Origin: a virus
Reading direction: 5' to 3' (one strand)
IMG/VR virus record: IMGVR_UViG_3300013137_000030
Location: 1 to 45,819 of that record
Length of the DNA: 45,819 bases
Part shown: piece after piece, positions 1-43,686 of the stretch
Layout: every line of letters begins with the position of its first letter
Position numbering within the stretch: the first letter of the stretch is position 1
Program-made: the position numbers and the translations under genes
Notes under the pieces: model-generated
The model's database searches: none
Told to the model about the DNA's origin: nothing
Seen by the model: only the letters and a program-made list of their open reading frames with translations

Positions 1-123
1 CCCTTCATCCTATCCACTACTTCTTGGTAGTAAGAGGGTGGCCACCACTTAGCTTGAATATCAAACTTCCCTCCTGCATCCACTACCCAGTAAGGGTCCT
101 TAAATGGTCTCTCCTTCTTTTCC
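1..123. repeat. Terminal direct repeat, left copy
   Basis: Bases 1-123 are identical to 45697-45819. An exact overlap at the two ends of a contig is what an assembler leaves on a circular or circularly permuted molecule. The reading frame of the minus-strand glycosyltransferase continues without a break across the overlap, which supports true closure. It could also be a short physical terminal repeat, but the contiguous gene makes an assembly overlap more likely. Confidence 0.93.
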
Positions 124-968
124 TTTTCAGTAAGCCAGACTTCTGGTCTAAAATGAATTGGCTTGAGTGGTACCTGCATCTGCTTCTCCCACCACTGGAA
201 GAAGCCATGAATAAAGTGATAGGGTCTTCCACACTCGTTGATAAGCTCATAGTGCATAGGAAGATAGGTGATCCCATCTTTTTCTAGTGGTTTCCTATTC
301 CTGCAAGCCTCGTCGAGGAATTGCTGCTTGAAGCCAGGAAGCTTGGTATCATAGGGACAATTCTCCCAAATCGCTGGGTAAGGAGTCCTAATGTCTGTTA
401 TGTACTTTCCTGGGTAGGTAAGATGAAGATCCCTAATGAAGGCAGTCAACATGAGTACATCCCCAGGAGACAAACCATGTTGGATCACAAGTTGCCTAGG
501 TTGAGGCAATTTACACCCTCCACATTGATGACTAGCACAGAGCTTATCTTTACTGTTTGGGTGACTACAGTCGAATATGCTTACCAGTAAGTCTCCCTGT
601 CCACAAATGTGTCGTTTAGTTTGTTCTTTGAGAGCCCCTCTAAAGAAACAGTAGGAAATCTCTTCTACAAGCTCACTTGTTTCGTTAGAGTTCATAGAAG
701 AGCCTTGAGAAGTGCTTTTAGTCTTGAGCGTTTTGCGTAAGTTATCACGCTTTACTTTTAGATGTAAAGCTGCATCTCTCTTTTCTTTATTGGCAAGACT
801 ATTAAAAGATGTAGTCAAATTAACTGGAAACTCCTTAGCATAAGCCTCGACCTTAACGAGCATACTCGCGCCGCCTGTCTCTCGGCAGCGGCGGCAGACG
901 GGCTCGGTCACGCCGCCGATCTGCGGGTAGCGGGCACAACGACCGTTGGTGGGCAGGCAGTCGCTCAT
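1..968 (-). CDS. Tandem GT9-like glycosyltransferase, N-terminal part (gene crosses the contig join)
   Basis: The frame opens at ATG 968 and stays open to base 1. Through the terminal repeat it joins the frame ending at 44439, giving about 741 residues. The ATG overlaps the TGA of the poly-serine gene (ATGA), so the two are translationally coupled. Residues 1-35 form a short Cys-rich segment (CRRC) coded by GC-rich DNA; an in-frame ATG at 863 marks where AT-richer DNA resumes and may be the older start. A second Cys cluster (CGGC) follows near residues 145-155. The first GT-B-like unit then begins with the motif GDVLMLTAFIRDL, as in ADP-heptose:LPS heptosyltransferases (family known, assignment inferred). 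Likely role: transferring a sugar to a virion protein or host glycan. Confidence 0.75.
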   Translation of the reverse strand, partial: MSDCLPTNGRCARYPQIGGVTEPVCRRCRETGGASMLVKVEAYAKEFPVNLTTSFNSLANKEKRDAALHLKVKRDNLRKTLKTKSTSQGSSMNSNETSELVEEISYCFFRGALKEQTKRHICGQGDLLVSIFDCSHPNSKDKLCASHQCGGCKLPQPRQLVIQHGLSPGDVLMLTAFIRDLHLTYPGKYITDIRTPYPAIWENCPYDTKLPGFKQQFLDEACRNRKPLEKDGITYLPMHYELINECGRPYHFIHGFFQWWEKQMQVPLKPIHFRPEVWLTEKEKKERPFKDPYWVVDAGGKFDIQAKWWPPSYYQEVVDRMK

Positions 969-1600
969 AGTTGGGTCCAATCGCCACAGTAGCCATAGCT
1001 GTTGCAGCCGTTGCAGTAGCCCGAGAGATTGCACGTACCGCCATCCACTACCCAGCACCAATTGCCGTCCCTGGATTCAACAATGCCCAGTGCATAGAGC
1101 ACGCTGGGCGTCTCTTCGTGGGCGTAGGCGAGGATCCATGTGCCGTCGCAGAGCTCCGCGCGGTACCGGGCCTTCCCACCGCTCGTCTCGAACCAGGTCA
1201 CGCAATGCGTTCCGTCGGCGCAGGGCGTGCAGCCTGGCGAATCGGTGATTTGGACGCGAAGTCCGCCCTCGGCGCAGGAGGTCGCCTGAGTGATTTCGGT
1301 GACGACGCAGGTGCCGATGTCGCCGGTGTAGGTGCCGAGAGGGTCTTCTGGGTCGGTGCCGCCTTCCCAGTAGTAGGATGCCCCCTCGCTGCACGTCACG
1401 GACCACACGCCCTCGGAGTAGGCGAGCGTGTAGGTGATACCAGACCTGAGGCCCGCTCCGGAACACTCCTCGCTCAGGGTCACACAGCAGGGGCCGATGC
1501 CGGCGTCAACTGGGGTCAGACAGTAGCGTTTATCCGCCAGGCTCGCACAGTTGCCAGAACTGGACGAACTAGATGAACTCGACGAGGACGATGAAGACGA
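865..1600. other. GC-rich mosaic segment
   Basis: This stretch is visibly much richer in G+C than the DNA on either side and uses codons such as GCC, GGC, CGC and TCG where the neighbours use AGA, CTT and TCA. It covers the C-terminal domains of the poly-serine protein and the first 35 residues of the GT9-like protein. Its right edge falls inside a serine-codon tract (1558-1665) and its left edge at an in-frame ATG (863). This looks like an imported block. Confidence 0.75.
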
Positions 1601-2920
1601 TGAACTTGAGGATGATGAACTTGAGGAACTTGATGAACTTGAGGAACTTGAGGAACTTGATGACGAGCATAGACTATTCCAACCACTACTCACCGAAAAG
1701 GTAAAGTAGATTCCCTCTAACCAGGTATAGCTTCCTGTTGGATTACACGGATCTGTTCCTCCAAAGAAGCCCCCACCAAGTCCTCCAATCAACCACTGCC
1801 CATACCAATACCTCCCAGCCCACCAAATACTAGCAGCACAATTAGTTCCCGCTGTTCCAGAAGCTGAGCAACCAGCTCCCATAGTAACGCAGAAGTTCCC
1901 TGATTGACAACCAGTTCCAGAAGTTCCTACTGAAATAGTATACTGATTACCTTCTAGTGAACTACACACACAAGAACTAGAAGAAGATGAACTTGACGAA
2001 CTACTTGAGCAGCAGTTGTTATTTCCTGCAGAAACTAAGCAGTCATAGCTTCCTGACATCCTTGTATAAAACCCTGCTGGACTACAAGGATTACTTCCTC
2101 CTCGAAATATGCTTGTTATCTCATCTACAACAGCATTTACCCACCAATATAGCCCATCCCACCAAATGGCTACACTGCAATCACCACATGTGGCTGCTCC
2201 TGCGCAACCATTTAAGGTCAAGCAAAAGATTCCTGTCCCAGAGGATAAACAAGGATATTCTCCTCCAATAGGGACAAGTCCTTCTATGTGAACTGTCCAC
2301 TCTGTTCCATTTAGATCTCCACAAGAGGAACAAGAGGAAGAGGAAGAGGAAGATGATGACGAACTACTAGAAGAAGACGATGAGCAACTTTCTAAAGTAC
2401 CAACAGTACATGTTGCTTCTAAGCAAAGTACACAAGTAGCAGGAACAGTACACCCGTCACACCTAAAGCCACTAAAGTCACTATCAATCTCATAGGTTCC
2501 TACTGGATCTTCACTAGTTCTATGGAAGTAGAGTCCACAGTCGTGTGTTATACCTTCTTCAATAAAAACAAAATGACTACAAAGTCTTACTTCAAGGTAT
2601 ATCCAGCAATCTATTGAACTTCCTGTATAAAGTTCATACCCACAATTAGTTATTCCATCCCAAGAGGCTCCCTTATTAAGCTGCCAAGATCCATTTAGAG
2701 GTGCAAAGGTACCTCCTAATCCTGTAAACGTAACTTCATAGCAGTCTTCTCCTCTCCCACAGGATTCTATACTACAAGAAGAGGAAGATTCTGATGAACT
2801 ACTTGAACTACTAGAATATAACGCTCCTGGATCTATATATACCACACCATCTCTTAAGTCACTAAGAATAGTGGTATCTGCAAACCTCAAGGGAGAATGA
2901 TAGTATTTAGTAATCGCCAC
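965..2920 (-). CDS. Poly-serine, Cys-rich multi-module tail protein
   Basis: This 651-residue protein starts at GTG 2920 behind GGGGAG. It is built of repeated Cys-rich modules of about 100-120 residues joined by poly-serine spacers near residues 36-48, 180-196, 304-315 and 419-454. Each module carries a related motif of the form DP..P.G.Y (GGSNPCSPAGFY, GGTDPCNPTGSY, GGTDPEDPLGTY, SEDPVGTY). I do not recognise the family. As the last large gene after the tape measure and distal tail genes it is probably a tail fibre or tip protein that contacts the host. The serine codons are mixed (TCA, TCC, TCG, AGT), so the runs are kept at protein level. The last 200 residues are coded by GC-rich DNA. 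A GT9-like gene follows with an ATGA overlap. Confidence 0.85.
   Translation of the reverse strand: MAITKYYHSPLRFADTTILSDLRDGVVYIDPGALYSSSSSSSSESSSSCSIESCGRGEDCYEVTFTGLGGTFAPLNGSWQLNKGASWDGITNCGYELYTGSSIDCWIYLEVRLCSHFVFIEEGITHDCGLYFHRTSEDPVGTYEIDSDFSGFRCDGCTVPATCVLCLEATCTVGTLESCSSSSSSSSSSSSSSSSSCSSCGDLNGTEWTVHIEGLVPIGGEYPCLSSGTGIFCLTLNGCAGAATCGDCSVAIWWDGLYWWVNAVVDEITSIFRGGSNPCSPAGFYTRMSGSYDCLVSAGNNNCCSSSSSSSSSSSSCVCSSLEGNQYTISVGTSGTGCQSGNFCVTMGAGCSASGTAGTNCAASIWWAGRYWYGQWLIGGLGGGFFGGTDPCNPTGSYTWLEGIYFTFSVSSGWNSLCSSSSSSSSSSSSSSSSSSSSSSSSSSSSSSSSSSSSSGNCASLADKRYCLTPVDAGIGPCCVTLSEECSGAGLRSGITYTLAYSEGVWSVTCSEGASYYWEGGTDPEDPLGTYTGDIGTCVVTEITQATSCAEGGLRVQITDSPGCTPCADGTHCVTWFETSGGKARYRAELCDGTWILAYAHEETPSVLYALGIVESRDGNWCWVVDGGTCNLSGYCNGCNSYGYCGDWTQL
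1558..1665 (-). repeat. Longest poly-serine coding tract
   Basis: About 35 consecutive serine codons on the minus strand. Codons on the left, GC-rich side favour TCG/TCC/TCT; those on the right side favour TCA/AGT. The change of codon choice inside the tract marks the likely recombination junction of the GC-rich segment. Shorter tracts lie at about 1976-2012, 2333-2383, 2777-2815 and, in the next gene, 3268-3297. Confidence 0.85.
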
Positions 2921-2922
2921 TC

Positions 2923-3813
2923 TTAGGCTCCCCAGTAACCAAGAATTACTTCCCCTGTATCTTCATCATACTGCACTGCTACAGTCTCATCACACCTATA
3001 TGTCTTTGTGATGTACCAATCATCAGTATTATAAGATACTGCAAGGTGTATAGGCATTTGGACAGTAGTAGTTGTAGTTCCTGAGTAAGGAGCTCCATAG
3101 GAGAGGTTAGTAACTCCAAATTTATGATAAGCTAACGTGTAATCTGTTGCCCAGATAATAGTATGAAATGCTCCAAAGACACTATCGTCTTCTTTCCTCA
3201 CACTTATCATATCCCCTCTTTGTTGACTTATCCTTGCCCACCAGAGGACATTTTCAGGATCAGCACTACTAGAAGAGCTACTACTAGAAGAACTCTCTCC
3301 AATAGTGTCTATGTACTTTGTCAGCAAGGTAAAAGGCCCAATTGGATTATACTCTCCTACCATACTATCTTTATGCTCCCCTACCCTATCTCCCCACTGA
3401 GGAGTAGAAGAGAGGAAAGTAGTCTCATCAACTCTAATTAACGAGATTCCACTCCTCTTTACCCTAAGTAACTGATTAGTATCTACACCATCTAGGGCAA
3501 GTCCCAAACTATGCGCATTACCTGTATAAGAAGCCAAGTCTGCCTTAAAACTCTTATTCAGCATTGTTGCATTACTACTCTCAAATATCTGTACTATCCC
3601 ACCCACCTCCACTGGATCTGTCCCCTCCCATTCAGCCCAGTCCCAATCTTCTCCCCACTCTCTTTTAGGAGCATTCATCGCCATATGAACGCCCTGCCCA
3701 AGTGCTTCCATTCCTTCTCCTGCCCAAGTAGGACGGAGAGCTTGGCGTAGCATTTCATTATAGTCACGAGCTACTATAAGATCCCCACGAGAAATAGGAG
3801 ACACTATCGCCAC
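2923..3813 (-). CDS. Distal tail protein with poly-serine spacer
   Basis: 296 residues, starting at GTG 3813 with AGGAGG seven bases upstream. It sits 2 bases from the poly-serine gene and directly after a tail protein gene, so it belongs to the same late operon. About ten serines (residues 173-182) separate an N-terminal region from a C-terminal region rich in aromatic and beta-type sequence, the same spacer type as in the next gene. No known family is evident. Position after the tape measure suggests a baseplate, tip or fibre component, perhaps one that carries or anchors the large poly-serine protein. Confidence 0.8.
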   Translation of the reverse strand: MAIVSPISRGDLIVARDYNEMLRQALRPTWAGEGMEALGQGVHMAMNAPKREWGEDWDWAEWEGTDPVEVGGIVQIFESSNATMLNKSFKADLASYTGNAHSLGLALDGVDTNQLLRVKRSGISLIRVDETTFLSSTPQWGDRVGEHKDSMVGEYNPIGPFTLLTKYIDTIGESSSSSSSSSSADPENVLWWARISQQRGDMISVRKEDDSVFGAFHTIIWATDYTLAYHKFGVTNLSYGAPYSGTTTTTVQMPIHLAVSYNTDDWYITKTYRCDETVAVQYDEDTGEVILGYWGA

Positions 3814-3815
3814 AA

Positions 3816-4766
3816 CTATCCTCCTATATACTTAGCTGAAAATGCTGATGCCCACTTAGCAGTCACGCCTGAAGGAGAAGACCCTCCAGCTTGGAGGTAG
3901 ACAGGCACAGATGACAGCGTATCCTTAAACACTCTAGTAAGTGTTGCAGGACTAGTAGACGTATCAAGCTTATCCTCGAAGTCTCTCCAATAGCAGTTCT
4001 TAATTAGGTAGCTACTAGCTCCTGGAAAGAGCCCAGCAGTTGCCATAAATGTATGTTGAAGTATATGATACTGCCTACACATTGACTGAATCTTATAACC
4101 AAGATAGACCCAAGTACCTGCAGTCTGAAAGTCTTTCGACATTATAGGCCAGGGAGTAATATCAGTTGCCTCGTTAACAGTAAACAAGATGTCGTCATAT
4201 TTCTTAAGGGGATGAGGAATAGCTTTTGTCTCTATTCCTGTTTCGTAAGCAAGATCATCAGTGGTCCCATTAAATGTATACGACTCACCCTCATAGATTA
4301 TTGGAGTAGACGAAATCAACTCCGCCTTAATGTTTTCTCTTACTGTCATAAGCATCCTACCCCTTACTACATTAGTCCCTATTCCTTTAGGCCCTACAGC
4401 CTTATACTTTCCATCAGTATCCTTTTCATAACCAACAAGCAACTGTTCCCCAGTTTGTTGAACTTCCTGCTCCACTGAGTGAAATCCTTGGAGAAGTCCA
4501 TAGTAAGTAGCTAACTCATGGCAATTATTTGTTCCATACCTATCTGCTTGCATGTCTACAAGAAACAACTCAAGATCCTCTAATCTATACTCATGATTAC
4601 CAGGAATCTTTATCATTTTGGGATATTCAGGATCAAACAGAGAATCACACGCCATCCCGAGATCTAGCCACTTAGCAATATAGACTACCTCTCCAGTCCT
4701 GTTATTAAACTTCAAGGTTTCTGGCTTATACATCTTCCCAACATCATTTACTGTAGCACCACTCAT
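3816..4766 (-). CDS. Tail protein after the tape measure
   Basis: 316 residues from ATG 4766, whose A is shared with the TAA of the tape measure gene (TAATG), a coupled start. I see no signal peptide, membrane segment or enzyme motif. The place immediately after the tape measure is where siphophages encode distal tail or tail-associated proteins, so a tail-tip role is inferred from context only. The sequence is rich in Tyr and mixed charged residues and ends in a Gly/Ser-rich stretch. Confidence 0.8.
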   Translation of the reverse strand: MSGATVNDVGKMYKPETLKFNNRTGEVVYIAKWLDLGMACDSLFDPEYPKMIKIPGNHEYRLEDLELFLVDMQADRYGTNNCHELATYYGLLQGFHSVEQEVQQTGEQLLVGYEKDTDGKYKAVGPKGIGTNVVRGRMLMTVRENIKAELISSTPIIYEGESYTFNGTTDDLAYETGIETKAIPHPLKKYDDILFTVNEATDITPWPIMSKDFQTAGTWVYLGYKIQSMCRQYHILQHTFMATAGLFPGASSYLIKNCYWRDFEDKLDTSTSPATLTRVFKDTLSSVPVYLQAGGSSPSGVTAKWASAFSAKYIGG

Positions 4767-6844
4767 TATTGTGCTCCAAAATTATCTGCTATTACTTTCG
4801 TGTTAGCTGCTATCTCTGAAAGAAAATCTACATCTTTCCCTCTAGCTATAGCCACACTCGCCCCACCAGCAATAACCCCTCCTCCTATTCCACCAGTAGT
4901 TTCTGCAAACATCCCTCCAATGTTGAAGGTAAGTCCCTTAGTCTTAAAAGCGTCTTCACCTCTTGCATCCTTAGCAAGTCTATCCTCATAGAGTCCCCTT
5001 TCTTTTTCATACCGAAGCATTACTCTCTCTTGTCCTAGTATTCCAAGCATTCTCGCATCACCACCAGCTCTCTCTGCCTTTGCCCACATCTCTTCTTGAA
5101 AATAGTCATCTCTACCTCTTCCTTTTAAGCCTATACCAAAAGGATGCTCAAAGGTGTCTGCAACCACTCGCTTAAGTGCTACCCAAGACTCTCCTAGAAA
5201 AGTCTCAGGCTCTTTAGCCTGTTTAGTATAAGCATTTTTTAAGTTTGTAACTCTAAAAGTCTCAAACTCCTTTAAGTATTCTCCAGGAGTCATACCAGAT
5301 GCTAGAACAGACTTTCCAGTTCTTTTAGCATAATCAGCCTTAAAACGTTCTTCTATTTCATCCATTCTAGGATCAGCTCCCCACTTACTCCTTCCTGGAC
5401 CCTTCTCAAAGGGATACTTTCCAAAATAGGTCTCTGCAATTCCTTTAACTGCTATACCTAGTTTAGAAGCTCCTTCCTCTTTGGGCATATTATTCTTTGA
5501 CCACTCAAGAAATGTGCCCCAAGCAGGAGCAGCATGTTCTCCAAAAGCTGCCTTAGAAGAAGTCCATTGAGCTAAAAAGGCTCTCTGCTGCATTTCAGGC
5601 TTCCTACCCTCTAAGAACATCTTTCCTTCCATAACAGCAGTAGCATCCATCATTGCCTTAATTCTAGCTCTAATCTCAAGTTGCTTCTCTAGTGCCTTAT
5701 TTTTCTCATCTACTACCCTCTTAGTAGTTTTTGTCTTATTAAATTCTATATCCAAACTCTCATCTATCTTTATCCCAAGAGCTTGGAACTGTCTTGTAAG
5801 TCCCATAGCTCCTTTCTTCATCGCTTCTACTGCGTGCTCAAGAGGAATCCTCTTATAAGCAGATAGGTCAGCTGCTCTCTTAGAGAGCATCTGAGTATAC
5901 GTTGCTGCTTCTTTTGCACCCATCCCAAGAGTACGTAATGTGTATCCCATGTCGTTATTGAGTTCTTGGAACTCATAGGAGTTAAGTCCAAGAGACTTCG
6001 AGGTAGTACGTGACCAAGAAGTCATTGACTGTGACATAATCCCAAAAGCATCATGAGTCTTCTCAGCTAGATCTTCATATCTCATTCCCAACTTTATAGC
6101 GTCAGCTGTTTGCCTTCCAACAAATCTCGCTGTCCCAAATATTCCTATCATCCAAATAGCTCTCTTAAGGTAGGACATAACAAACTGTCCTCCCTTAACC
6201 TTACTTTCCTTTCTTCTTCTTTCTGCTCCTGTAGTACGAGTAAGCATATCGCGATCTTCAGGAGCAGTAGTAGTATAAGCTCTCTCTGCCCAAGGAAGAG
6301 CATCTTTCCAGTGCTTTCCTCCCTTTGCATAGGCAAGACTTCTAATTGCTCTTCTTCTAGTAGCTGCCTCCCTTTCCATAGCAAATACTTCTGCGTAGCC
6401 TCTTTTTTCCTCCTTAAGTCTGTCACTAACTGCTTTCTTCGTTGCAGAAGTAAGCTTATCTTCCTCTTTAGCTCGAAGACCCATAGTTATCAGGTCGATT
6501 TTTTCTATCTCTTTAGCAGCTCTTCTCTTTTCTTTAAACACAGCTACATCTGCTGCTCTAGTCTCATAGTACCTTGGGTCTCTCCTTAGTAAAATTCTTG
6601 CCTCTTTTTCTGCAGTTTTCTTAGTCACTCCTCCCTTCTCATAGATTTCTGTGGTAAGACGTTTAAAGTCTCTCTTCATACTAGGAGAAATCTTAGCAAC
6701 TGGAGTCACAGGAATCTCTATTGGCGACAAAGCTTTTGCTTTTCTTACTGCCTCTGCTCTAGCTTTGGCCAGATCAGGAGCAAGTTTAGTGAACCCCAGA
6801 CGAGTATCAATAAGCAACTCGCCTACCTTAATTATTGTCGCCAT
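4766..6844 (-). CDS. Tape measure protein
   Basis: 692 residues, ATG at 6844. A long, Lys/Arg/Ala-rich helical N-terminal half is followed by a hydrophobic stretch near residues 232-250. After it comes a block of the type found in TP901-like tape measures (SLGLNSYEFQELNNDMG, then MLSKRAADLSAY and GLTRQFQALGIKID). The C-terminus has a Gly/Ala-rich hydrophobic segment. The protein sets tail length and helps DNA passage. With the usual 1.5 angstrom per residue the tail would be about 100 nm. Its position behind the two-frame tail chaperone supports the call. Confidence 0.92.
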   Translation of the reverse strand: MATIIKVGELLIDTRLGFTKLAPDLAKARAEAVRKAKALSPIEIPVTPVAKISPSMKRDFKRLTTEIYEKGGVTKKTAEKEARILLRRDPRYYETRAADVAVFKEKRRAAKEIEKIDLITMGLRAKEEDKLTSATKKAVSDRLKEEKRGYAEVFAMEREAATRRRAIRSLAYAKGGKHWKDALPWAERAYTTTAPEDRDMLTRTTGAERRRKESKVKGGQFVMSYLKRAIWMIGIFGTARFVGRQTADAIKLGMRYEDLAEKTHDAFGIMSQSMTSWSRTTSKSLGLNSYEFQELNNDMGYTLRTLGMGAKEAATYTQMLSKRAADLSAYKRIPLEHAVEAMKKGAMGLTRQFQALGIKIDESLDIEFNKTKTTKRVVDEKNKALEKQLEIRARIKAMMDATAVMEGKMFLEGRKPEMQQRAFLAQWTSSKAAFGEHAAPAWGTFLEWSKNNMPKEEGASKLGIAVKGIAETYFGKYPFEKGPGRSKWGADPRMDEIEERFKADYAKRTGKSVLASGMTPGEYLKEFETFRVTNLKNAYTKQAKEPETFLGESWVALKRVVADTFEHPFGIGLKGRGRDDYFQEEMWAKAERAGGDARMLGILGQERVMLRYEKERGLYEDRLAKDARGEDAFKTKGLTFNIGGMFAETTGGIGGGVIAGGASVAIARGKDVDFLSEIAANTKVIADNFGAQ

Positions 6845-6848
6845 CCTA

Positions 6849-7393
6849 CTATTCCCTTGAATAAAACATCCAGACTTGTAAGAGAGAAAGCTTCTTTACT
6901 TCCTCGTAGCTAAATCCCTTCTTCACCAAGGTAAGCATTATTTCTGCCCAGTCAACTGCGATGTCGGAGGGTTTTCAGGAGTAGTTTCTCCCTCCTTTAC
7001 TTTAAGCAATCCACTCTCCACATAAAGGATAGTGGCAAGGTCAGTGTGCTCTACAAGCTCTGAGCAGTCAGAAATAGTAGTATTGGGGTAGTTGGTTTTG
7101 AGAGACCTACAGAGTAAGAACGCTTGTCCAGTAGAGGTATAGACAAAGTTCCAAATATCATCCTCTGACGGGTCTTGAGCAACTGTCTTTGCCAGAGAGT
7201 TAGCCACCAGTGTCTGTCGTTGCTCCTTAGCAACAAACGCAGCTATTGCCTCCAAACGCTGCTTCCTAATCTCTGCAGAAACAGCTGCAAGATCTTCGAA
7301 GTTGATCCTCCTAAGCTTGATTGCACTTCCTTGGAAAGGAACTTCGACATCTTGTTCTACCACCTTATCCAACACAACTCTATTCAGACTCAT
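6849..7393 (-). CDS. Tail assembly chaperone, -1 frameshift product (gpGT-like)
   Basis: A -1 slip at AAACCCT (6974-6968) would replace the last nine residues of the 151-residue frame with a 39-residue extension ending at TAG 6851-6849, about 181 residues in all. The extension (SDIAVDWAEIMLTLVKKG, then SYEEVKKLSLLQVWMFY) resembles the T-domain of lambda-like chaperones, which binds the tape measure. Known biology: most long-tailed phages make two chaperone forms this way. The extension lies just before the tape measure start at 6844, as expected. The frame and the slippery heptamer are seen directly; the slip itself is inferred. Confidence 0.75.
6938..7393 (-). CDS. Tail assembly chaperone, short form (gpG-like)
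   Basis: 151 residues from ATG 7393, with GGAGGGGAG upstream. It contains an N-terminal FQGSAIKLRRINFEDLAAVSAEIRKQRLEA region typical of phage proteins lying between the tail tube and tape measure genes. It is probably the abundant short form that coats the tape measure during tail assembly. It ends at 6938 unless ribosomes slip at 6968-6974 into the -1 frame. Confidence 0.8.
   Translation of the reverse strand: MSLNRVVLDKVVEQDVEVPFQGSAIKLRRINFEDLAAVSAEIRKQRLEAIAAFVAKEQRQTLVANSLAKTVAQDPSEDDIWNFVYTSTGQAFLLCRSLKTNYPNTTISDCSELVEHTDLATILYVESGLLKVKEGETTPENPPTSQLTGQK
6968..6974 (-). promoter_or_regulatory. Programmed -1 frameshift slippery site
   Basis: On the minus strand the sequence reads A AAC CCT in the chaperone frame, which fits X XXY YYZ exactly. 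Re-pairing as AAA CCC leads straight into an open -1 frame of 39 codons. I see no strong stem just downstream. Confidence 0.75.
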
Positions 7394-7414
7394 CTTTCTC
7401 CCCTCCTAGTAGGG

Positions 7415-7789
7415 TTAAGCACCAGTAAGTGTGCTACTCACAGTAAACTGCACCACAAGAACCCTTTCTGACCCATCCTTACTTACTCCCGCTTGAACTC
7501 CATTCACGATAAGGCTCCCAGTGTAGGTTTTTCCTGCAGCAGCAGTAAGTGTGAATGCAGCAGCAGTGGCACCCATAGTGATTGGAGGAGCAGTAGTGTC
7601 ACCCATATAGCAGGTATAACTTCCTGTTGCTCCTTTCAGCCCATCAATATTAGTCTTCCATGCACTTCCACCAGAGAAGATAGAAGTGTCTAGAGCTTCT
7701 CCTGCAATGTCAATCTGCCATTTGTGAACAAACACCACATGCCCAGTAGCAAAGGTCACGTTCCCTGTCGTGCCACTAATAGCAGCCAT
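7415..7789 (-). CDS. Tail tube-like protein, copy B
   Basis: 124 residues, ATG 7789 behind AAGGAGAA. It aligns along its length with the next protein upstream: both start with an ISG.TG.VTFA.G motif, then VHKW, a central GTG/ATGSY.CY and a shared AGVSKDGS.R.L.V.F near the end. The beta-rich composition and place before the chaperone and tape measure fit a tail tube protein. The tandem pair suggests gene duplication, with one copy forming the tube and the other perhaps a decoration or terminal ring. Confidence 0.75.
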   Translation of the reverse strand: MAAISGTTGNVTFATGHVVFVHKWQIDIAGEALDTSIFSGGSAWKTNIDGLKGATGSYTCYMGDTTAPPITMGATAAAFTLTAAAGKTYTGSLIVNGVQAGVSKDGSERVLVVQFTVSSTLTGA

Positions 7790-7807
7790 CAGCAGTTCTC
7801 CTTACCA

Positions 7808-8197
7808 CTATGCCATAACGTTCGTCATTTCACCATTGAATTCAAACTCTACAGTAAGTGTTCTATCAGAACCATCTTTACTAACCCCTGCCTTGATTCC
7901 AGTCGTCCTAATTGGTCCTTTGTAACCAACAGGAGTAGTAGAATCAATTTGGAATGTCGCAGTACCAGTATCTCCCACATCCACTGGAAGAGCCACTACA
8001 CTATCAATATAGCACTCATAGCTACCAGTCCCTGACATCTGTCCTCCAATATAAGTCCTCCAGGCGCCATCAGCAAACGCAGTGGTTTCCAACATCTCAC
8101 AGGTGGGATTAAGTGACCACTTGTGAACATTGGTAGTGTAGCCTTCTGCAAAGGTAACACTCCCTGTAATACCACTAATTGCAACTTCTGCAGCCAT
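7808..8197 (-). CDS. Tail tube-like protein, copy A
   Basis: 129 residues, ATG 8197 with AGGAGGA upstream. It is a paralogue of the 124-residue protein that follows. The strongest shared parts are GSVTFAEG, VHKWSL, GTGSYECY and AGVSKDGSDRTLTVEF. No enzyme motif or membrane segment is present. By position and beta-rich sequence it is the better candidate for the major tail tube subunit, but which copy forms the tube cannot be told from the sequence. Confidence 0.77.
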   Translation of the reverse strand: MAAEVAISGITGSVTFAEGYTTNVHKWSLNPTCEMLETTAFADGAWRTYIGGQMSGTGSYECYIDSVVALPVDVGDTGTATFQIDSTTPVGYKGPIRTTGIKAGVSKDGSDRTLTVEFEFNGEMTNVMA

Positions 8198-8208
8198 CTC
8201 GATTCCTC

Positions 8209-8667
8209 CTAGTATTGAATCTCAGCCATCAACGTTCCATGCAAAGCAAGCATAGTACCATCCATCATTACTACTGGTCCTCCAAGAACCCGAAGAGAAA
8301 CAAAGGAACCCTTAAGAAGCTCAAGGTCTTGCTCATCATAGAGTTCTACAAAGGCATCCCAGATGCTCTGAGCATCTCTAGCAGAACCAGCAGTATCTGA
8401 AGTTCCCACAAAGTCAGTAAACACTGAAAGTCGCAATGAGGTCTGACTCAACCTCGTACTAAACATCCTTACATAGGAACCTCCTAGAGAACTCAATACT
8501 GCATACTTTGGTCTACTCCCTCTAGGAGCTTCAGGATAGTAGAGTTTCCCAGTTCCTAGGAGACTATATGGAGTTCCAGCAGTGGTATGCTCTTCATACC
8601 TAGCCACAAGGGCTCTAATAAGATCATTAGAGTAAGACCAAGGATTAGGGGCAATAGGAGTTGTCAT
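8209..8667 (-). CDS. Tail completion / terminator-like protein
   Basis: 152 residues from ATG 8667, which overlaps the stop of the preceding gene (ATGA). The N-terminus (SNDLIRALVARYEEHTTAG) and the middle (TSLRLSVFTDFVGTSDTAGSARDAQSIWDAF) resemble small phage proteins placed between the neck and the tail tube gene, which cap the tail and join it to the head. The family assignment is from position and general likeness, not a firm motif. Confidence 0.65.
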   Translation of the reverse strand: MTTPIAPNPWSYSNDLIRALVARYEEHTTAGTPYSLLGTGKLYYPEAPRGSRPKYAVLSSLGGSYVRMFSTRLSQTSLRLSVFTDFVGTSDTAGSARDAQSIWDAFVELYDEQDLELLKGSFVSLRVLGGPVVMMDGTMLALHGTLMAEIQY

Positions 8668-9167
8668 ACAACAAGTCCAATAATCATGATCTTGTAGATA
8701 ATGGTCGCTGCTCCAGAATCTATCTTAAGTATGTCTCCTGTTCCTGCAGTCACTGCCCACCCTGCACCTGGATGCCAGATGAGGAGAGAACCATTAGGGC
8801 CCACTTTCACGATATCAGTCGCTGCATTGAATGGAGCATACCAAGCATTAGCAGCAGCCCCTCCCACGAGGAGATTAGCTCCAGCAGTAGCAGTACTATT
8901 CTTAATAAGAAGTCCCTTTATGTAAGTAAAGGTAATAGTAGTTCCAAATACGTCAGTCAGTCCTCCTGCAAGATCAAGATTCTCAGAAGTAGCAGAAAGA
9001 CTCCTTTGATCTCCCCAAACCATATTTGCTTGGTCTGTCCCTGTCCCCTGAATGAGTGTATCTCCAAAGTCGATTGTAGGTTGATCAATAGTGGTTGAAA
9101 GGTCAAGAGGATTTGTATACCTACACTTGAGATTACCAAAAAGAGTTGTTGTAAGAGAGGTAGCCAT
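8664..9167 (-). CDS. Structural protein of unknown function
   Basis: 167 residues from ATG 9167, the second of two adjacent ATGs; TAGGAG lies six bases before it and only three before the first. The protein is rich in Thr, Gly and Ala with alternating hydrophobic residues, typical of beta-structured virion proteins. It lies between the gp10-like and tail terminator-like genes and overlaps the next gene by ATGA. The segment FGDTLIQGTGTDQANMVWGDQRSLSA suggests a phage tail protein domain, but I cannot name it. Confidence 0.7.
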   Translation of the reverse strand: MATSLTTTLFGNLKCRYTNPLDLSTTIDQPTIDFGDTLIQGTGTDQANMVWGDQRSLSATSENLDLAGGLTDVFGTTITFTYIKGLLIKNSTATAGANLLVGGAAANAWYAPFNAATDIVKVGPNGSLLIWHPGAGWAVTAGTGDILKIDSGAATIIYKIMIIGLVV

Positions 9168-9176
9168 CATCTTCTC

Positions 9177-9641
9177 CTAATCAAGAGGGGTAGAAACAAA
9201 TTCTTCACCACCAAGGTATTTCTTTATAACTCCTAGACTATTCAACATCACTGGAGTTATGTAAGGTCTTGGATAGATGTAAGCCCTTCCAGCCTGCCCT
9301 CCAAACTCAAGAATTGCTGCGTAGGGAACTCCTCCCCACGATTCCTTGCCACTCAAACTCCCAACAGTAAGCACAATCTCCTTCATCCTAGCATCAGAAA
9401 TCCTATAGGAGATACTATTTCTAAGATCTCCACTACGCTTAAAGGGAGGACTATAAGGTGTACTTCCAGGTCCCCCCGGCCAAAGAATATTAAGGAGTGC
9501 CTTGATGTCTCGAACAAGTCTCTTCCCTAGGCGCACCAGTCTAGGTTTCATGATCCCTACTGTCATGAGCTCCACTTGCTGCTCGGCTCCTTGAACTGCT
9601 ATAAACTTAACTCCCACTAGAGAGACCTTTCTAGAAAGCAT
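9177..9641 (-). CDS. HK97 gp10-like neck/tail protein
   Basis: 154 residues, ATG 9641, overlapping the head-closure gene by 25 bases. The sequence PPFKRSGDLRNSISYRI followed by YAAILEFGG and RPYITP is the pattern of the HK97 gp10 family: a small neck protein with a conserved FGG/RPFL-type tail end. It would act at the head-tail joint. No strong ribosome site is seen near 9641, so translation may depend on the upstream gene. Confidence 0.75.
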   Translation of the reverse strand: MLSRKVSLVGVKFIAVQGAEQQVELMTVGIMKPRLVRLGKRLVRDIKALLNILWPGGPGSTPYSPPFKRSGDLRNSISYRISDARMKEIVLTVGSLSGKESWGGVPYAAILEFGGQAGRAYIYPRPYITPVMLNSLGVIKKYLGGEEFVSTPLD

Positions 9642-9943
9642 TGAGTCACATGATTTCTCCCAGCCTCATCTTTTACTGCTTTCACTTCCCAAATAGTTGA
9701 ATCGTCGAGGATTATAGTACAAATTTCAGTAACGTCTGTTCTATATGCCAAGTAGAGTTTTCCCTTCTTGGTGTCTGCATCTCTCTCTTCATTAGGAGTT
9801 TCAGCCCCTTCATCCTCTTGAAAGGCACAAGCCACACTAGAAGCAACAATAGAAGAAGTCCTTACTACCCCTCCCATAGAATCCAAAGAAGTAGTATAGG
9901 TGACTATTGTGCACGTACGATTTAGAAGACTAGTAAGACTCAA
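9617..9943 (-). CDS. Head closure / head-tail adaptor protein
   Basis: 108 residues with a TTG start at 9943 that overlaps the TGA of the connector gene (TTGA), the same coupled layout used elsewhere in this operon. Length, the N-terminal LLNRTCTIVTYTT strand pattern and the C-terminal WEVKAVKDEAGRNH fit head-closure proteins of the SPP1 gp16/HK97 gp7 sort, which seal the portal after packaging. Assigned from length, order and pattern. Confidence 0.7.
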   Translation of the reverse strand: MSLTSLLNRTCTIVTYTTSLDSMGGVVRTSSIVASSVACAFQEDEGAETPNEERDADTKKGKLYLAYRTDVTEICTIILDDSTIWEVKAVKDEAGRNHVTQCFLERSL

Positions 9944-10833
9944 GAGGACACCAACCTTCTATAGTGACCCAGGATCATCCTTTGTTTGGCATTAAACACT
10001 GTCCCATTGTTAGCCTGCTCTCTACTCTTCCTATACTCATAATCTCCTATCTTCTCCATCTCCAAACTTGCATCCCCTTCCCTCTCGTCATACATAGACT
10101 TCACGAGTTCCAAACAAACCTGCTCCATATCATAAGGGATAGAGGTAGAAGCATATCCCGCAGTGTACTCTATGTAAATTGCTGCCTCTTGTTCTATCGT
10201 GAAATCCTCATCCAAATCCACTATTCCCTCTTCAGCTTGCAGACGAAACTCCCTTATTGGACGATAAGGAACCTGAAGCCAGGCTTGAACAGGAGTATAA
10301 CACATAAGTCCATACTTAGGACGAAGTTTGGTGGATTGGTAGGAGCCATAGGTAATAGAGTCTGGAATAGTCGCGGTCCATCCAGAAGTAGCAGAGATCG
10401 CTGCTGCCATGAGAGTGAGTGTACTATAGATAGTTGTAGACAAAGAAGTAGTCCCTGCTCCTGCTCCATCAGCTACCACTAAACTCACAGCAGTAGAAGA
10501 AGCATTGATGGTTGCTACTGTCGCCCCACTTGTAGAGCATTCCACATACATAATGTCTTGCACATCTACTGAAAGTCTCCCTACAGCAGTCACTGGATAC
10601 TGAGGAAGGAGGAGTCTCGACGAGCCATCTCCATCAAGCCAGCTGGCATAGCTCCTAGATACTAGAAGTCTATCACAGTAGGCTTCTATTGCTGCTGAGG
10701 CTGCTTGACACAACCTAGTAAGTCTAGTATCATAGGTACTAGAGGTGCTTCCAAGCACATAGTCCCTAATAGTGGTCAACTTTGCTGAGTCAGTTGATCC
10801 ATTCACTAGGCAGTAACCCATTACATCTGCCAT
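9940..10833 (-). CDS. Head-tail connector protein (gp6-like)
   Basis: 297 residues, ATG 10833. The N-terminal half (TRLTRLCQAASAAIEAYCDRLL) and the C-terminal half (YDMEQVCLELVKSMYDE, then YEYRKSREQANN) match the two helical parts of HK97 gp6-type connectors, which form a ring under the portal. Between them is a Ser/Thr/Ala-rich beta insertion (about residues 95-160) that makes it longer than typical 100-200 residue connectors. It is followed by closure and gp10-like genes in the normal order. Confidence 0.8.
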   Translation of the reverse strand: MADVMGYCLVNGSTDSAKLTTIRDYVLGSTSSTYDTRLTRLCQAASAAIEAYCDRLLVSRSYASWLDGDGSSRLLLPQYPVTAVGRLSVDVQDIMYVECSTSGATVATINASSTAVSLVVADGAGAGTTSLSTTIYSTLTLMAAAISATSGWTATIPDSITYGSYQSTKLRPKYGLMCYTPVQAWLQVPYRPIREFRLQAEEGIVDLDEDFTIEQEAAIYIEYTAGYASTSIPYDMEQVCLELVKSMYDEREGDASLEMEKIGDYEYRKSREQANNGTVFNAKQRMILGHYRRLVSS

Positions 10834-10835
10834 CG

Positions 10836-11243
10836 TTAGGCCCTTTGAAGAAAGAGCTTTATCGTTCCAGCCGTGGAGTTTCCAGCATTCGTGACTGCCA
10901 CAGTAACCACACTGCTAATCATAGGATGCACAGCAAGGGCCACTGCAGCAGCATTCTTCACAAAGAAGTAAACCTCTTCAGTATTCGCTATGTCCCTATC
11001 AAGGAGATTATCATCACAATTAGAAAGGAAGTTGAATGAGTTACTATCAGTAAGGACGATATCATAGTTGTCAGCAGGAGCAGCAGTTCCTGAAGGAATA
11101 GTAATCGCTTTTACTAGTCTTCCCTCTAACTTCGCAGTAGACCCAGAAACTGCTCCAGTATCAGTAGAAGTAACCCAAGAAACGTTACACACATACACTG
11201 GTCCAGCACTCTCGTAGGTAAACGTCATTGTTCCCGCAGCCAT
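10836..11243 (-). CDS. Small virion protein before the connector genes
   Basis: 135 residues. The start is ATG 11243, since GGAGGA lies only a few bases upstream; a TTG at 11255 in frame is a worse choice because the ribosome site would fall inside it. The protein is beta-type (TFTYESAGPVYVCNVSWVTSTDTG) without enzyme motifs. It is the first gene after the GT4 gene and lies just downstream of one of the five palindromes, so it may open a new transcription unit for the neck and tail genes. Function unknown; a head decoration or completion role is possible. Confidence 0.7.
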   Translation of the reverse strand: MAAGTMTFTYESAGPVYVCNVSWVTSTDTGAVSGSTAKLEGRLVKAITIPSGTAAPADNYDIVLTDSNSFNFLSNCDDNLLDRDIANTEEVYFFVKNAAAVALAVHPMISSVVTVAVTNAGNSTAGTIKLFLQRA

Positions 11244-11259
11244 CTTGTCCTCCAATCGT

Positions 11260-11278
11260 TATTTCAATAATTGAAATA
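11260..11278. promoter_or_regulatory. Palindromic operator-like site 1
   Basis: TATTTCAATAATTGAAATA is a perfect 19-bp palindrome around a central A, followed by TCTC. It sits 17 bases ahead of ATG 11243 of the minus-strand gene at the head of the neck/tail block. It is one of five near-identical copies, all in intergenic DNA. Confidence 0.75.
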
Positions 11279-11288
11279 TCTCTAGCAA

Positions 11289-12377
11289 CTACTTGCTAAG
11301 CGCTTCCTCATAAACTCCTTGCATTCTCTTGGAGAACTCCTTTTCAGAAAAGACCATTTCTCCATGAGCTGCTACAGACATCCTCCACTCTTCCCTATTT
11401 CTTTTTTCTAGACTACTCAACACCTCATCTACCTGTTTTGCCATAACTTCTGGCCTATCTGGCATTGACCCTTCTAGCCAAAAAAGTTCTTCCTGTCCCC
11501 TCTCATCTCCCATCACTGGGCATCCACAGCATTGCGCTTCCATCACAATCCTAGTGGCTATCTTATGAGGAGTTATTACAAGATCCATAGCTCTATAGAC
11601 TTCATCCATCCTAGGAGCTCTTGCCCATACCTCCCCTTGGATACCAAGTTCCCTATACTTCCTAAATATCCACTCCCAGCTCCTAAGTGGTTGATCCACT
11701 GCGTAGAAATGAATCTTGAAGTCCTTGAAACCTCTCTTATAAAGTTCTACAGGAACATGTGCTATCTCGAAGCAGTCAACATCACTTCTCCAGGAATCTG
11801 CAACTAGAAGGTTAAATTTTCCACTCTTCCCTTCAGGGAACTTATGCACTTCTCCCTCTAACTTATACCTACTCATATCCAAAGTAGGTGGCCCTATACA
11901 CCTTAGTTTCTTATCATCCACTAAAACACTCCAATAAGGCAAGTGTTCTTTCCAAAGAGTAACCATAAACGCACATCTTTCTTGTCTCGAAAAGTCTCCA
12001 TGAAAACTATAAGCCATGTTCCTTCCTTGATACTCTGGCCTAAAGCAGTCAAGAGGCCTTCCATGACAAATCATCACCACTGGACAACTCGTTACTTTCA
12101 TTACATCTTCTGGCACCACGTCATGCCCCACAATAATATCTGCTCCTTTAGCATCTTCTACTGAAGAGGTAGAGAGTAGAAACCCTCCCCGATCATCTCT
12201 GGTTCCTACTCTCCTTTCCTCTCTTGTAACCCCATTACTAGCTCCTGTATCTATGAAAACCACTTCATGTCCAGCAAGTTTATCTAGACGATAAAAGTCT
12301 CTCGCTGCTTCGTAGAGACCACATCTCACGAAGCCTCCATTTCCTAGTCCAAACGGAGCTACATGAACGATCTTCAT
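11289..12377 (-). CDS. GT4-type glycosyltransferase
   Basis: 362 residues, ATG 12377. The N-terminus MKIVHVAPFGLGNGGFVRCGLYE is the Gly-rich acceptor-side loop of GT-B enzymes. The C-terminal half carries the GT4 signature region (GEVWARAPRMDEVYRAMDLVITPH, then EAQCCGCPVMGDERGQEELF), matching the E-x7-E nucleotide-sugar site. It would move a sugar from an NDP donor to an acceptor. It stands inside the capsid operon, directly after the Ser/Thr-rich fibre gene. Phage enzymes in such places often modify a virion protein, so that fibre is the likely substrate (inference). Confidence 0.82.
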   Translation of the reverse strand: MKIVHVAPFGLGNGGFVRCGLYEAARDFYRLDKLAGHEVVFIDTGASNGVTREERRVGTRDDRGGFLLSTSSVEDAKGADIIVGHDVVPEDVMKVTSCPVVMICHGRPLDCFRPEYQGRNMAYSFHGDFSRQERCAFMVTLWKEHLPYWSVLVDDKKLRCIGPPTLDMSRYKLEGEVHKFPEGKSGKFNLLVADSWRSDVDCFEIAHVPVELYKRGFKDFKIHFYAVDQPLRSWEWIFRKYRELGIQGEVWARAPRMDEVYRAMDLVITPHKIATRIVMEAQCCGCPVMGDERGQEELFWLEGSMPDRPEVMAKQVDEVLSSLEKRNREEWRMSVAAHGEMVFSEKEFSKRMQGVYEEALSK

Positions 12378-12404
12378 AGTAGGATCTCCCCTCCTAGTAG
12401 TTTA

Positions 12405-14264
12405 CTACGCTCCAGCTGTCACGGTCGCTCCAGGAGTCACAGGTTCCCAAAGGATACCCCACTTGATCACACCAGTAATTGGAGCGGAGTAGGTAACAGT
12501 AATCGTCCCACTCGTCACACAAGCAGCCACCACGTCCTTCAATTGAGAGCCTGGCGCCAGTGCACCACCAGCTGTGACCACAAGACCATCAGCAGCAGTA
12601 CCAGTAATATCAAGCATGGTCCCCGCTGCCTTGTTCTGCACAGAAGTGGTAGTACAGATGTCATAGGCACCAAGCGCATCAGGAGTCACAGACAACTTCG
12701 CTGTAGCCGCTGCGTCCTCTGTGTTAGTGGTTACTACTCCCACGATCCTCTTGATACCAATGATTCCAGTATAGTTAAAGAGAGTTGCTGAGGCCAAACT
12801 CGCCTGGGTCTTAGTGGTCTGCTGCTCAGTCTTCAAGGTAAGAGTGCTCAACACTGAAGCAGTAGCCACATTAGCCAATGTGCTCACCAAAGTGGATTGA
12901 TTAGTGGAAGCAGTCGTTTGATCAGCCGTCAAAGTGCTAACGAGCGTCGATTGGTTAGTAGAATCTACTGTGACATTGGAAGCAAACGTGCTAACCAATG
13001 TGCTTTGGTAAGTGCTCTGTGTAGAAGCCACCGCCAGTGTAGCAAGAGTACTAACCAAGGTCGACTGGTTCGTAGAGTCCACTGTGACATTAGAGGCAAA
13101 GGTGCTCACCAACGTACTCTGGTAGGTACTTTGGGTAGAAGCCACTGCTACTGTAGCCAACGTGCTTACGAGAGTCGACTGATTGGTGGAATCGACTGTC
13201 ACATTAGAAGCAAATGTACTTACCAAAGTCGACTGGTTAGTAGACACACTTGTAGTCAACACAACAATCTTCGAATCCACCGTGCTTACTGCAGTAGAAG
13301 AGGCCTTAGTACCAAGTGTACTAACCAACGTTGATTGGCTGGTCGAATCCACAGTCACGTTAGAAGCAAAGGTACTCACAATCGTTGACTGGTTAGTCGA
13401 CACTGCTGTCGACAAGGCACTCACATCATCCCCAGCAAGTGCCGCGCCAGAACCACCAGAGAAGTTACACCCAGCTTCTTGGTCAAAACAAGAAGTCACT
13501 TCCCACACTGAACCAGTAGCAGTATCTACTACACTCTTGGAGAAGTCAGAAGTAGTAGCGGAATAAAACTCACTATTCTTTACCACTACTCCCAAGCAGG
13601 CAGTGTCAAAGCTCACCGCTGCAGTAACATACTTGCCATAAAACCTACAACCATCTACAACTGCTCCAGAGCACCCATTAAGCGACAACGCACTCTCTTG
13701 CTGATCCCCTGAAGTGTAGCCATTGAAGAAGCATCCTTGAAAAACAGGACGAACACCACTAGCGGTTACCCAGATATCCACCTCAACATTCGTGGCGTCT
13801 CTACACTCGCAGTCAATCATCTTGAAGTCAGCACCACTAGCAGTAATGCCAACATTCAAGCCATCCTTTCCTGCCACAAAAAGAAGGTTCTTCAGGGTCA
13901 CATTAGCAGCTGAAACCACCACTGTAGCTGCATCAGCAGTCTTTACTGTAAACGTTGGACGATTAGTTCCTTCCCCAAGACCCACCACAGAAATCCCTGC
14001 AATGTCCAACACCGCAGTAGTGGCAGCTACAATGTCCTCTGCATGACCAGGCATCAAGTAGATGATGTCTCCAGCGTTCGCTGTGCAGAGCCCAACTGCG
14101 TAGTCGAGAGACTTCAACGGACTATCAGGATTAGTCCCATAGCCAGTAGAGTCTGTTCCAGTAGTGGCATTCACAAAGAATCTCGAACCAGTAGACTTGC
14201 TCTGGTCCTCAATCACCATACTCCCTTGATGCCACCTAGAAAACAACTCAGTTTTCGCAGCCAT
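12405..14264 (-). CDS. Head fibre-like protein: beta-helix plus Ser/Thr repeats
   Basis: 619 residues, ATG 14264 with AGGAGAG upstream. Residues about 25-255 look like a right-handed beta-helix (FFVNATTGTDSTGYGTNPDSP, then repeated strands such as ISVVGLGEG, VTLKNLLFVAGKDG and DFKMIDCECRD). Residues about 275-470 are a tandem repeat of about 38 residues around QSTLVSTFASNVTVDSTN and QSTLVSTLATVAVAS, very rich in Ser and Thr. A beta-type C-terminal domain follows. The order head, shaft, tip suggests a trimeric fibre. The place between capsid and connector genes favours a head fibre over a tail spike. A GT4 gene follows at once. Confidence 0.78.
   Translation of the reverse strand: MAAKTELFSRWHQGSMVIEDQSKSTGSRFFVNATTGTDSTGYGTNPDSPLKSLDYAVGLCTANAGDIIYLMPGHAEDIVAATTAVLDIAGISVVGLGEGTNRPTFTVKTADAATVVVSAANVTLKNLLFVAGKDGLNVGITASGADFKMIDCECRDATNVEVDIWVTASGVRPVFQGCFFNGYTSGDQQESALSLNGCSGAVVDGCRFYGKYVTAAVSFDTACLGVVVKNSEFYSATTSDFSKSVVDTATGSVWEVTSCFDQEAGCNFSGGSGAALAGDDVSALSTAVSTNQSTIVSTFASNVTVDSTSQSTLVSTLGTKASSTAVSTVDSKIVVLTTSVSTNQSTLVSTFASNVTVDSTNQSTLVSTLATVAVASTQSTYQSTLVSTFASNVTVDSTNQSTLVSTLATLAVASTQSTYQSTLVSTFASNVTVDSTNQSTLVSTLTADQTTASTNQSTLVSTLANVATASVLSTLTLKTEQQTTKTQASLASATLFNYTGIIGIKRIVGVVTTNTEDAAATAKLSVTPDALGAYDICTTTSVQNKAAGTMLDITGTAADGLVVTAGGALAPGSQLKDVVAACVTSGTITVTYSAPITGVIKWGILWEPVTPGATVTAGA
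12880..13410 (-). repeat. Tandem coding repeats, about 114 bp, in the fibre gene
   Basis: The motif QSTLVST recurs with alternating spacings of about 18 and 20 residues, so the full unit is about 38 residues (114 bp). Copies differ at many silent sites, so the array is old and kept by selection on the protein rather than by recent slippage. Confidence 0.8.
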
Positions 14265-43194: not shown

Positions 43195-43686
43195 CTAGGT
43201 CGGAGGGGGCGACCCTTTCAGGCATCCCTCCTGCAGTAAAGTGGTAGTTGAGAAACCTTCTTCTTCCTTAATATACACCACCTTTCCTCCCCACCTAGTA
43301 ATTAATGTCTCTCCAGTAAGCTTCTTTCCCATATAAGAGGATCCTTTAACAAGAAGATCTGCTTGAGTAGCTACAAGAAGTTCTTCTAGTTCTTCTTCAG
43401 TCTTAAAGGGCACTACGTAGTCTACCCAAGGAAGGTTGGAGAGAGCACTTAGCCTAAACCTCAAGGGTACTATAGGCCGTCCAGAACCTTTCAGTGATTG
43501 TACTGACTCATCAGTGTTTACTAGTACTACCACTGCATCTGCCAGAACCCTACATCCTTTTAGAAGCGCAAAGTGTCCTGCATGAAGTACATCAAAGCAT
43601 CCATTGGTAACTACTATCTTATGGCCATTCTTATGCCTTATCCTACACACTGTCTCAAGTATCTCTCTATCCACTATCCTATTCAA
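43195..43686 (-). CDS. Nucleotidyltransferase, HldE/RfaE C-domain type
   Basis: 163 residues from TTG 43686, which has AGGAGG nine bases before and overlaps the methyltransferase stop; GTG 43710 is the longer alternative. TNGCFDVLHAGH is the CTP/ATP-binding HxGH-type motif. VNTDESVQSLKGSGRPI and the end GFSTTTLLQ are typical of D-glycero-beta-D-manno-heptose-1-phosphate adenylyltransferases. It would make an activated sugar, perhaps the donor for the GT9-like enzyme two genes upstream. Confidence 0.83.
   Translation of the reverse strand: MNRIVDREILETVCRIRHKNGHKIVVTNGCFDVLHAGHFALLKGCRVLADAVVVLVNTDESVQSLKGSGRPIVPLRFRLSALSNLPWVDYVVPFKTEEELEELLVATQADLLVKGSSYMGKKLTGETLITRWGGKVVYIKEEEGFSTTTLLQEGCLKGSPPPT

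Follow-up and report, generated by a model that had tools for sequence, protein, structure and literature searches.

A phage gene set that may O-heptosylate poly-serine tracts of its own virion

The window analysed here is one IMG/VR virus record, IMGVR_UViG_3300013137_000030, of 45,819 nt. At the end of its structural operon, a gene encoding a protein with long runs of pure serine overlaps the gene of a two-domain glycosyltransferase of family 9 (GT9), and a methyltransferase gene and a gene resembling ADP-heptose synthases lie further along the same strand. In viral contigs, genes encoding serine runs are strongly and specifically associated with this GT9 family, and the association was found independently in bacteria. 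We propose, with a probability of about 0.62, that these genes are a phage-encoded kit for the O-heptosylation of poly-serine (poly-Ser) tracts of the phage's own virion.

The poly-Ser/GT9 gene set

The window carries an exact terminal direct repeat of 123 bp (bases 1-123 are identical to 45697-45819) and was therefore treated as a circular unit of 45,696 bp. All genes named in a first-pass annotation of this DNA were present on the minus strand. The layout it gave for the poly-Ser, GT9, methyltransferase and nucleotidyltransferase genes was borne out, including the ATGA in which the stop codon of the poly-Ser gene overlaps the GT9 start, and the GT9 frame (741 aa) which runs through the circular join, from 968 to 1 and then from 45696 to 44439. 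The interval to which it had confined the system (1-14264) leaves out 43195-45819, and with it the methyltransferase gene, the HldC-like gene and half of GT9. The features concerned are as follows.

965..2920, minus strand: poly-Ser protein of 651 aa in which Ser runs link Cys-rich modules; proposed acceptor
2923..3813, minus strand: tail-module protein of 296 aa with a run of 10 Ser (3265-3294); possible second acceptor
1..968, minus strand: first part of GT9, with the N-terminal 157 aa and the N-lobe of catalytic domain 1 containing the PGD motif
44439..45819, minus strand: second part of GT9, with K307, REPxxWEAY, Cys413/420/438/450 and a second GT9-like domain (aa 486-741)
43679..44245, minus strand: class I methyltransferase, MT24-like (PF13578, 8.2e-5, below cut-off; phrog_24975, 1.3e-36)
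43195..43710, minus strand: heptose-1-phosphate adenylyltransferase resembling HldC or HldE domain II (TIGR02199, PDB 5x9q, phrog_7878); likely ADP-heptose source
890..1545, no strand: GC-rich block (62-67% versus about 43% in its surroundings) covering modules M4-M5 and the start of the GT9 frame

The 651-aa protein contains runs of 8 (2792-2815), 17 (2333-2383), 12 (1973-2008) and 37 serines (1556-1666), and a run of at least 12 serines was obtained in none of 2000 shuffles of its sequence. In both this protein and its 296-aa neighbour the runs are encoded by mixed TCN and AGY codons, indicating that they are kept at the protein level and are not microsatellites. Modules M2 to M4 are homologous to one another. 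The GC-rich block begins where the 37-Ser tract ends, and module M4, inside the block, has its homologues M2 and M3 outside it, in AT-richer DNA. This suggests recombination at the poly-Ser tract, and Ser tracts may act as recombination joints between modules. As the first residues of GT9 come with the same block, the true start of the enzyme is uncertain. Neither the poly-Ser protein nor GT9 had a sequence relative among 50,697 annotated GenBank phage records.

Pfam recognized GT9 (PF01075) in the 44439-45819 part (1.1e-8; 35.2 bits for a cut-off of 22), and no homologues were found for the N-terminal extension of 157 aa. Scanning viral contigs with a DNA signature derived from the enzyme (WEAY...GGCW) recovered 26 loci, and an alignment search of viral contigs yielded 80 GT9 loci, corresponding to 52 clusters at 70% identity. 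Members of the family align over window residues 158 to 473 with 32-46% identity. The PGD motif (D170) and K307, both present in the window, are invariant in 21 aligned sequences, and the family also shares the REPxxWEAY motif and four conserved cysteines (413, 420, 438 and 450). An AlphaFold2 model of a family member other than the window protein (L282, 44 sequences) reached a pLDDT of 92.5 and has the GT-B heptosyltransferase fold. In a Foldseek search with this model, all PDB matches below 1e-6 were GT9 heptosyltransferases (HepII, Veillonella GT9 3tov, TibC and WaaC). A profile search aligned the invariant PGD and K with catalytic positions of HepII; TibC was not found by sequence in the profile search of the PDB.

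What the conserved GT9 domain is joined to varies: in the window it is a second GT9-like domain, in locus L306 a GT4 domain identified by Pfam, and in other cases a different C-terminal domain. Domain 2 of the window enzyme is encoded by a separate gene just upstream of GT9 in L292, L294 and L311; in the last two it overlaps GT9, and both loci have neighbours with 33-42 Ser. A constant first enzyme with variable second enzymes would resemble a glycan-initiating transferase followed by variable elongation.

Other peculiarities of the family were noted in passing. In L018:5196-7469(+), and in the same gene of L338, an intein-like insert with a Cys at its start and HN before the following Cys splits GT9 between GGKYDFT and CKWW, the catalytic K motif. 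A sulfotransferase-like C-terminal domain, suspected from motifs alone in L005, L279 and L290, was not confirmed by Pfam for L005, the one checked, and is only a lead; possible sulfotransferase-like motifs, likewise without a Pfam match, are seen in L289:6989-7747, beside GT9, and in the fused C-terminus of L005.

The gene previously described as a sugar nucleotidyltransferase could be assigned more narrowly, its best family by far being that of HldE domain II and HldC (TIGR02199, 5.4e-40; 136.5 bits, under the curated cut-off of 181.5), in agreement with matches to PDB 5x9q (6.5e-21) and phrog_7878 (1.9e-29). This closeness makes ADP-heptose, which GT9 heptosyltransferases use as their donor, the most likely activated sugar. 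GT9 has HldC or HldE genes as neighbours both in phages and in Planctomycetota. Homologues of the methyltransferase adjoin GT9 in phages and bacteria, with 4 occurrences in the 80 viral GT9 loci versus none in 331 other viral loci.

Association of GT9 with serine runs in phages and bacteria

The surroundings of the 52 viral GT9 clusters were compared with those of 91 random viral loci (0.83 Mb) and 120 loci with collagen-like repeats (1.09 Mb), controls which are not matched tail clusters. Genes with a run of at least 6 serines reached 38/Mb around GT9, versus 0/Mb in random and 0.9/Mb in collagen-type loci. Such a run was present within 5 kb on either side in 20 of the 52 clusters, as opposed to 0/91 random and 1/120 collagen loci (Fisher, about 1e-10), and a run of at least 8 within 5 kb in 14/52 versus 0/91 and 0/120. 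No other homopolymer (Thr, Asn, Gln, Ala, Gly, Glu and others) was enriched around GT9 clusters. The association also held in the reverse direction, with GT9 in 8 of 49 records picked by a poly-Ser DNA pattern alone and in none of 50 random records. In 11 long GT9-bearing records, genes with at least 8 consecutive serines numbered 10 per 223 kb proximal to GT9, in regions selected in the knowledge that several contained Ser runs, versus 0 per 400 kb distal.

A scan of bacterial genome contigs with the signature gave 113 loci, of which 92 were true members, mostly from Planctomycetota and Verrucomicrobiota; a Ser-run gene was present in 18 of these 92 unselected tiles (up to 8 kb). The association was then replicated by a family- and order-wide search blind to poly-Ser, for which six of the same genomes supplied the distal regions. 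Ser-run genes were found in 11/20 GT9-proximal regions versus 2/20 distal ones (p=0.006); 11/20 was used as the rate, a figure of 15/20 having been set aside since its loci were partly picked for poly-Ser. In L459 and L509, a complete HldE containing both kinase and adenylyltransferase (NF008454, 1e-119 and 1e-114) stands beside GT9 or its neighbour, and a poly-Ser protein resembling RHS/DUF6531 is encoded in the same locus. In Chthoniobacter flavus Ellin428 (L583) the poly-Ser gene (10588-11127) adjoins GT9 (9413-10519). Long poly-Ser RHS/DUF6531-like proteins accompany GT9, in several cases with HldE, across five Planctomycetota loci (L459, L509, L515, L568 and L578), which are apparently chromosomal and not of phage origin.

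In a tree of 153 GT9 domains, phage and bacterial sequences are mixed, with 9 label changes of which at least 5 are forced by starred branches, and the poly-Ser label switches at least 15 times among the 66 phage rows. The link between poly-Ser and GT9 is thus not one inherited arrangement. The earlier claim that serine-rich virion proteins are paired with glycosyltransferases holds for poly-Ser and the GT9 family, given the strong Ser-specific association in phages, its independent occurrence in bacteria and the ADP-heptose synthase nearby.

Several results weigh against heptosylation of the Ser runs. GT9 is missing from 84% of poly-Ser records, and for 27/52 GT9 clusters the fetched locus contains no Ser-run gene, which is in part the situation that the first-pass annotation had named as contrary to its proposal, namely transferases kept without a Ser-rich neighbour. 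Within loci, adjacency is modest (11 versus 6.5 expected within two genes, p=0.035, and not significant for runs of at least 8), only slightly above chance, and was dropped as a main argument. No glycosyltransferase family appeared among the top Pfam matches of the neighbours within two genes of poly-Ser genes, so the general statement that poly-Ser genes come with glycosyltransferases fails. The window GT9 is divergent and sits on a long branch of the tree, and the phage has no heptose-7-phosphate kinase, which would make it dependent on the host. Since half of the clusters are without Ser runs and most poly-Ser genes without a glycosyltransferase, poly-Ser tracts have uses without GT9, and GT9 may have other acceptors.

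The control loci offered a separate observation. Neighbours of the collagen-like (GPX) phage genes (L148-L267) include five 2-oxoglutarate-Fe(II) oxygenases and four GT2 enzymes, and these are perhaps loci for the hydroxylation and glycosylation of phage collagen.

Proposed pathway, alternative explanations and the capsid-side genes

The TibC-like fold, the donor synthesis and the Ser-only association together suggest that GT9 O-heptosylates Ser runs. The HldC-like enzyme would act in the host cytoplasm, turning heptose-1-phosphate supplied by the host into ADP-heptose. Domain 1 of GT9 would then move the sugar, most likely heptose, onto Ser hydroxyls of the flexible runs in the 965-2920 protein, and possibly also in the 2923-3813 protein, before virion assembly; domain 2 and the methyltransferase would elongate or cap the glycan. 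The result would be a virion showing sugar-coated, extended spacers between Cys-rich domains, with shielding, stability or adsorption as conceivable benefits. What the first-pass annotation had proposed overall, that the phage O-glycosylates its own Ser-rich proteins, is retained in part: the poly-Ser/GT9 pair stands by association, and glycosylation itself is what we infer.

On a wider scale, and at slightly less than even odds in our estimation, an undescribed poly-Ser O-heptosylation system could be common to bacteria of the Planctomycetota/Verrucomicrobiota type and to uncultured phages. The four-Cys GT9 would initiate, variable glycosyltransferases and methyltransferases would elaborate, and the long Ser runs, hyperglycosylated, would act as bottle-brush spacers in RHS-type surface proteins of bacteria as well as on virions. 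Runs of pure poly-Ser recur without explanation in the surface proteins of both phages and bacteria, and a dedicated enzyme would account for that part of them with which it travels. Ser O-heptosylation would then extend beyond autotransporters, heptose would join the known virion glycans, and the signature REPxxWEAY...GGCW would find glycosylated virions in uncultured phages.

The most serious alternative is that poly-Ser tracts are plain, unmodified flexible spacers, frequent in these clusters of tail genes, and that the GT9 cassette acts on another acceptor, the two sharing a neighbourhood through variable tail or receptor clusters. 'Polyserine linkers' are reportedly spoken of for T. turnerae (PMC2699552) and S. 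degradans (PMC2386152), bacterial genomes rich in carbohydrate-active enzymes. The scarcity of glycosyltransferases beside most poly-Ser genes, the GT9 loci devoid of Ser runs and the modest adjacency within loci are what such spacers would produce. They would hardly give a roughly 40-fold, Ser-specific enrichment around a single glycosyltransferase family, which is also seen in the reverse direction; nor would a phage tail cluster explain the enrichment seen independently in bacterial chromosomes, some of them with a complete HldE, and control tail-type genes of the collagen type lack any such enrichment. We regard plain spacers as unlikely, at something like one chance in five.

It is distinctly improbable that the cassette alters the host envelope by a lipopolysaccharide (LPS)-type heptose glycan during infection or lysogeny, for instance to block superinfection. 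Both GT9 and HldE are classically enzymes of the LPS core, and the closest named sequence matches are LPS heptosyltransferases, but the cassette overlaps a virion gene inside the structural operon, its four-Cys cluster is conserved, and an association with Ser runs is not expected of LPS modification. Least credible of all is that hypermodified phage DNA is what the transferases glycosylate, the methyltransferase being involved in base modification. Some phage glycosyltransferases do so (reviewed in PMC12619734), whereas the methyltransferase here is MT24-like, outside the DNA-methylase families, and the genes keep company with Ser-run proteins and ADP-heptose enzymes rather than with nucleotide enzymes. 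O-heptosylation of virion Ser tracts is the reading that we prefer.

The cassette closes a siphovirus-type structural operon on the minus strand, in which terminase, portal, protease and major capsid protein (MCP) genes are followed by a 155-aa gene, a Ser/Thr-rich protein, a GT4-like gene, connector and tail genes, the tape measure (6844-4766) and two tail-region genes, and then by the 651-aa poly-Ser protein, GT9 across the join, a small gene, the methyltransferase and the HldC-like gene. The structural names are those we presume from gene order and sequence, in part from general knowledge. Two similar genes lie in tandem at the major-tail-protein position (7415-7789 and 7808-8197). Further features of the operon are given below.

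14949..16229, minus strand: HK97-like major capsid protein; its relatives in L042 and L105 are accompanied by an MCP paralogue with a poly-Ser tail
12405..14264, minus strand: Ser/Thr-rich protein of 619 aa, an N-terminal domain followed by a repeat; probably capsid-attached
11289..12377, minus strand: GT4-like glycosyltransferase, weak assignment (PF13524, 1.9e-4, below cut-off)
4766..6844, minus strand: tape measure, named from order and sequence

The repeat of the Ser/Thr-rich protein (aa 270-475; window 12840-13457) consists of 44% Ser+Thr and 5% charged residues. The protein had been described as a fibre followed by a GT4 gene; the gene order was confirmed, the GT4 identity is weak (21.9 bits for a PF13524 cut-off of 25), and the product is probably attached to the capsid rather than a tail fibre, because its gene is flanked by the major capsid gene on one side and the connector genes on the other, and the sole relative of its N-terminal domain in phage records (MW202647.1) is encoded directly after a major capsid gene. 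That the GT4-like enzyme modifies this protein, as a separate second glycosylation pair, is a tentative idea that we rate at roughly one in three. The transferase gene directly follows that of the protein, whose repeat has a fitting composition, and the relative without the repeat is also without an adjoining glycosyltransferase (n=1). Conversely, the assignment falls below the Pfam cut-off, no homologues of the GT4-like protein were found in viral contigs or phage records, and surface Ser/Thr on a fibre shaft could simply be a neutral surface. An AlphaFold2 model of the GT4-like protein made without an alignment (pLDDT 38) was not used.

A single-protein scan of viral contigs returned no relatives of the capsid protein. 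In the closest capsid relatives of the set, a second MCP-like protein with a long poly-Ser C-terminal tail is encoded directly after the normal capsid gene (L042:118-1263(-) and L105:3401-4921(+)), the tail of the L105 paralogue also having a Cys-rich module. Judging from these genes, poly-Ser display on the capsid does occur in relatives; both loci were fetched for poly-Ser and hence give an existence proof and no rate.

Comparison with known systems

Serine-rich repeat adhesins, to which the first-pass annotation had likened the window, also combine a Ser-rich acceptor with its own glycosyltransferases in one cluster, but they use different glycosyltransferase families, and their serines alternate with other residues instead of forming pure runs. 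TibC-type Ser heptosyltransferases are nearer in fold, donor and Ser preference. With the LPS core heptosyltransferases WaaC, WaaF and WaaQ, which are also GT9 enzymes, the family shares the fold and the catalytic PGD and K positions; it differs by its four-Cys cluster, its REPxxWEAY motif and its gene neighbours. No description of the poly-Ser/GT9 pairing was found in the open-licence literature on poly-Ser phage proteins, phage heptosylation and poly-Ser glycosyltransferases of Planctomycetes.

Virion glycosylation by phage-encoded glycosyltransferases acting on the phage's own capsid or tail protein is established for the mycobacteriophages Che8, Corndog and Myrna (Freeman et al. 2023, as cited in PMC12363180 and PMC12619734). 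The citing papers ascribe to these enzymes neither a GT9/heptose identity nor a pairing with poly-Ser proteins.

The closest parallel is provided by the bacterial autotransporter heptosyltransferases (BAHT) TibC and AAH (PDB 4rap/4rb4; PMC4358343). TibC moves heptose from ADP-heptose to Ser, and the modified residues of its partner are Ser and not Thr (PMC4358343). BAHT resemble the present family by the GT9/heptosyltransferase fold, ADP-heptose donor genes nearby, four conserved cysteines late in the C-lobe, a nearby partner gene and, as gene context suggests for the present family, the preference for Ser. In contrast, the L282 model has no N-terminal beta-barrel and starts at a Rossmann strand, with PGD at residues 12-14; the phage-family cysteines are spaced C-x6-C-x17-C-x11-C instead of the C-x2-C-x15-C-x11-C of the BAHT iron finger; the partners are phage poly-Ser or bacterial RHS/DUF6531-like proteins and not beta-helix autotransporters; and GT9 is here found in phages and fused to other glycosyltransferase domains. 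Membership in BAHT was rejected on account of the barrel missing from the L282 model and of a partner that is no autotransporter. Taken together, the best reading of these similarities and differences is that the phage GT9 works like a BAHT enzyme without being a member of that family.

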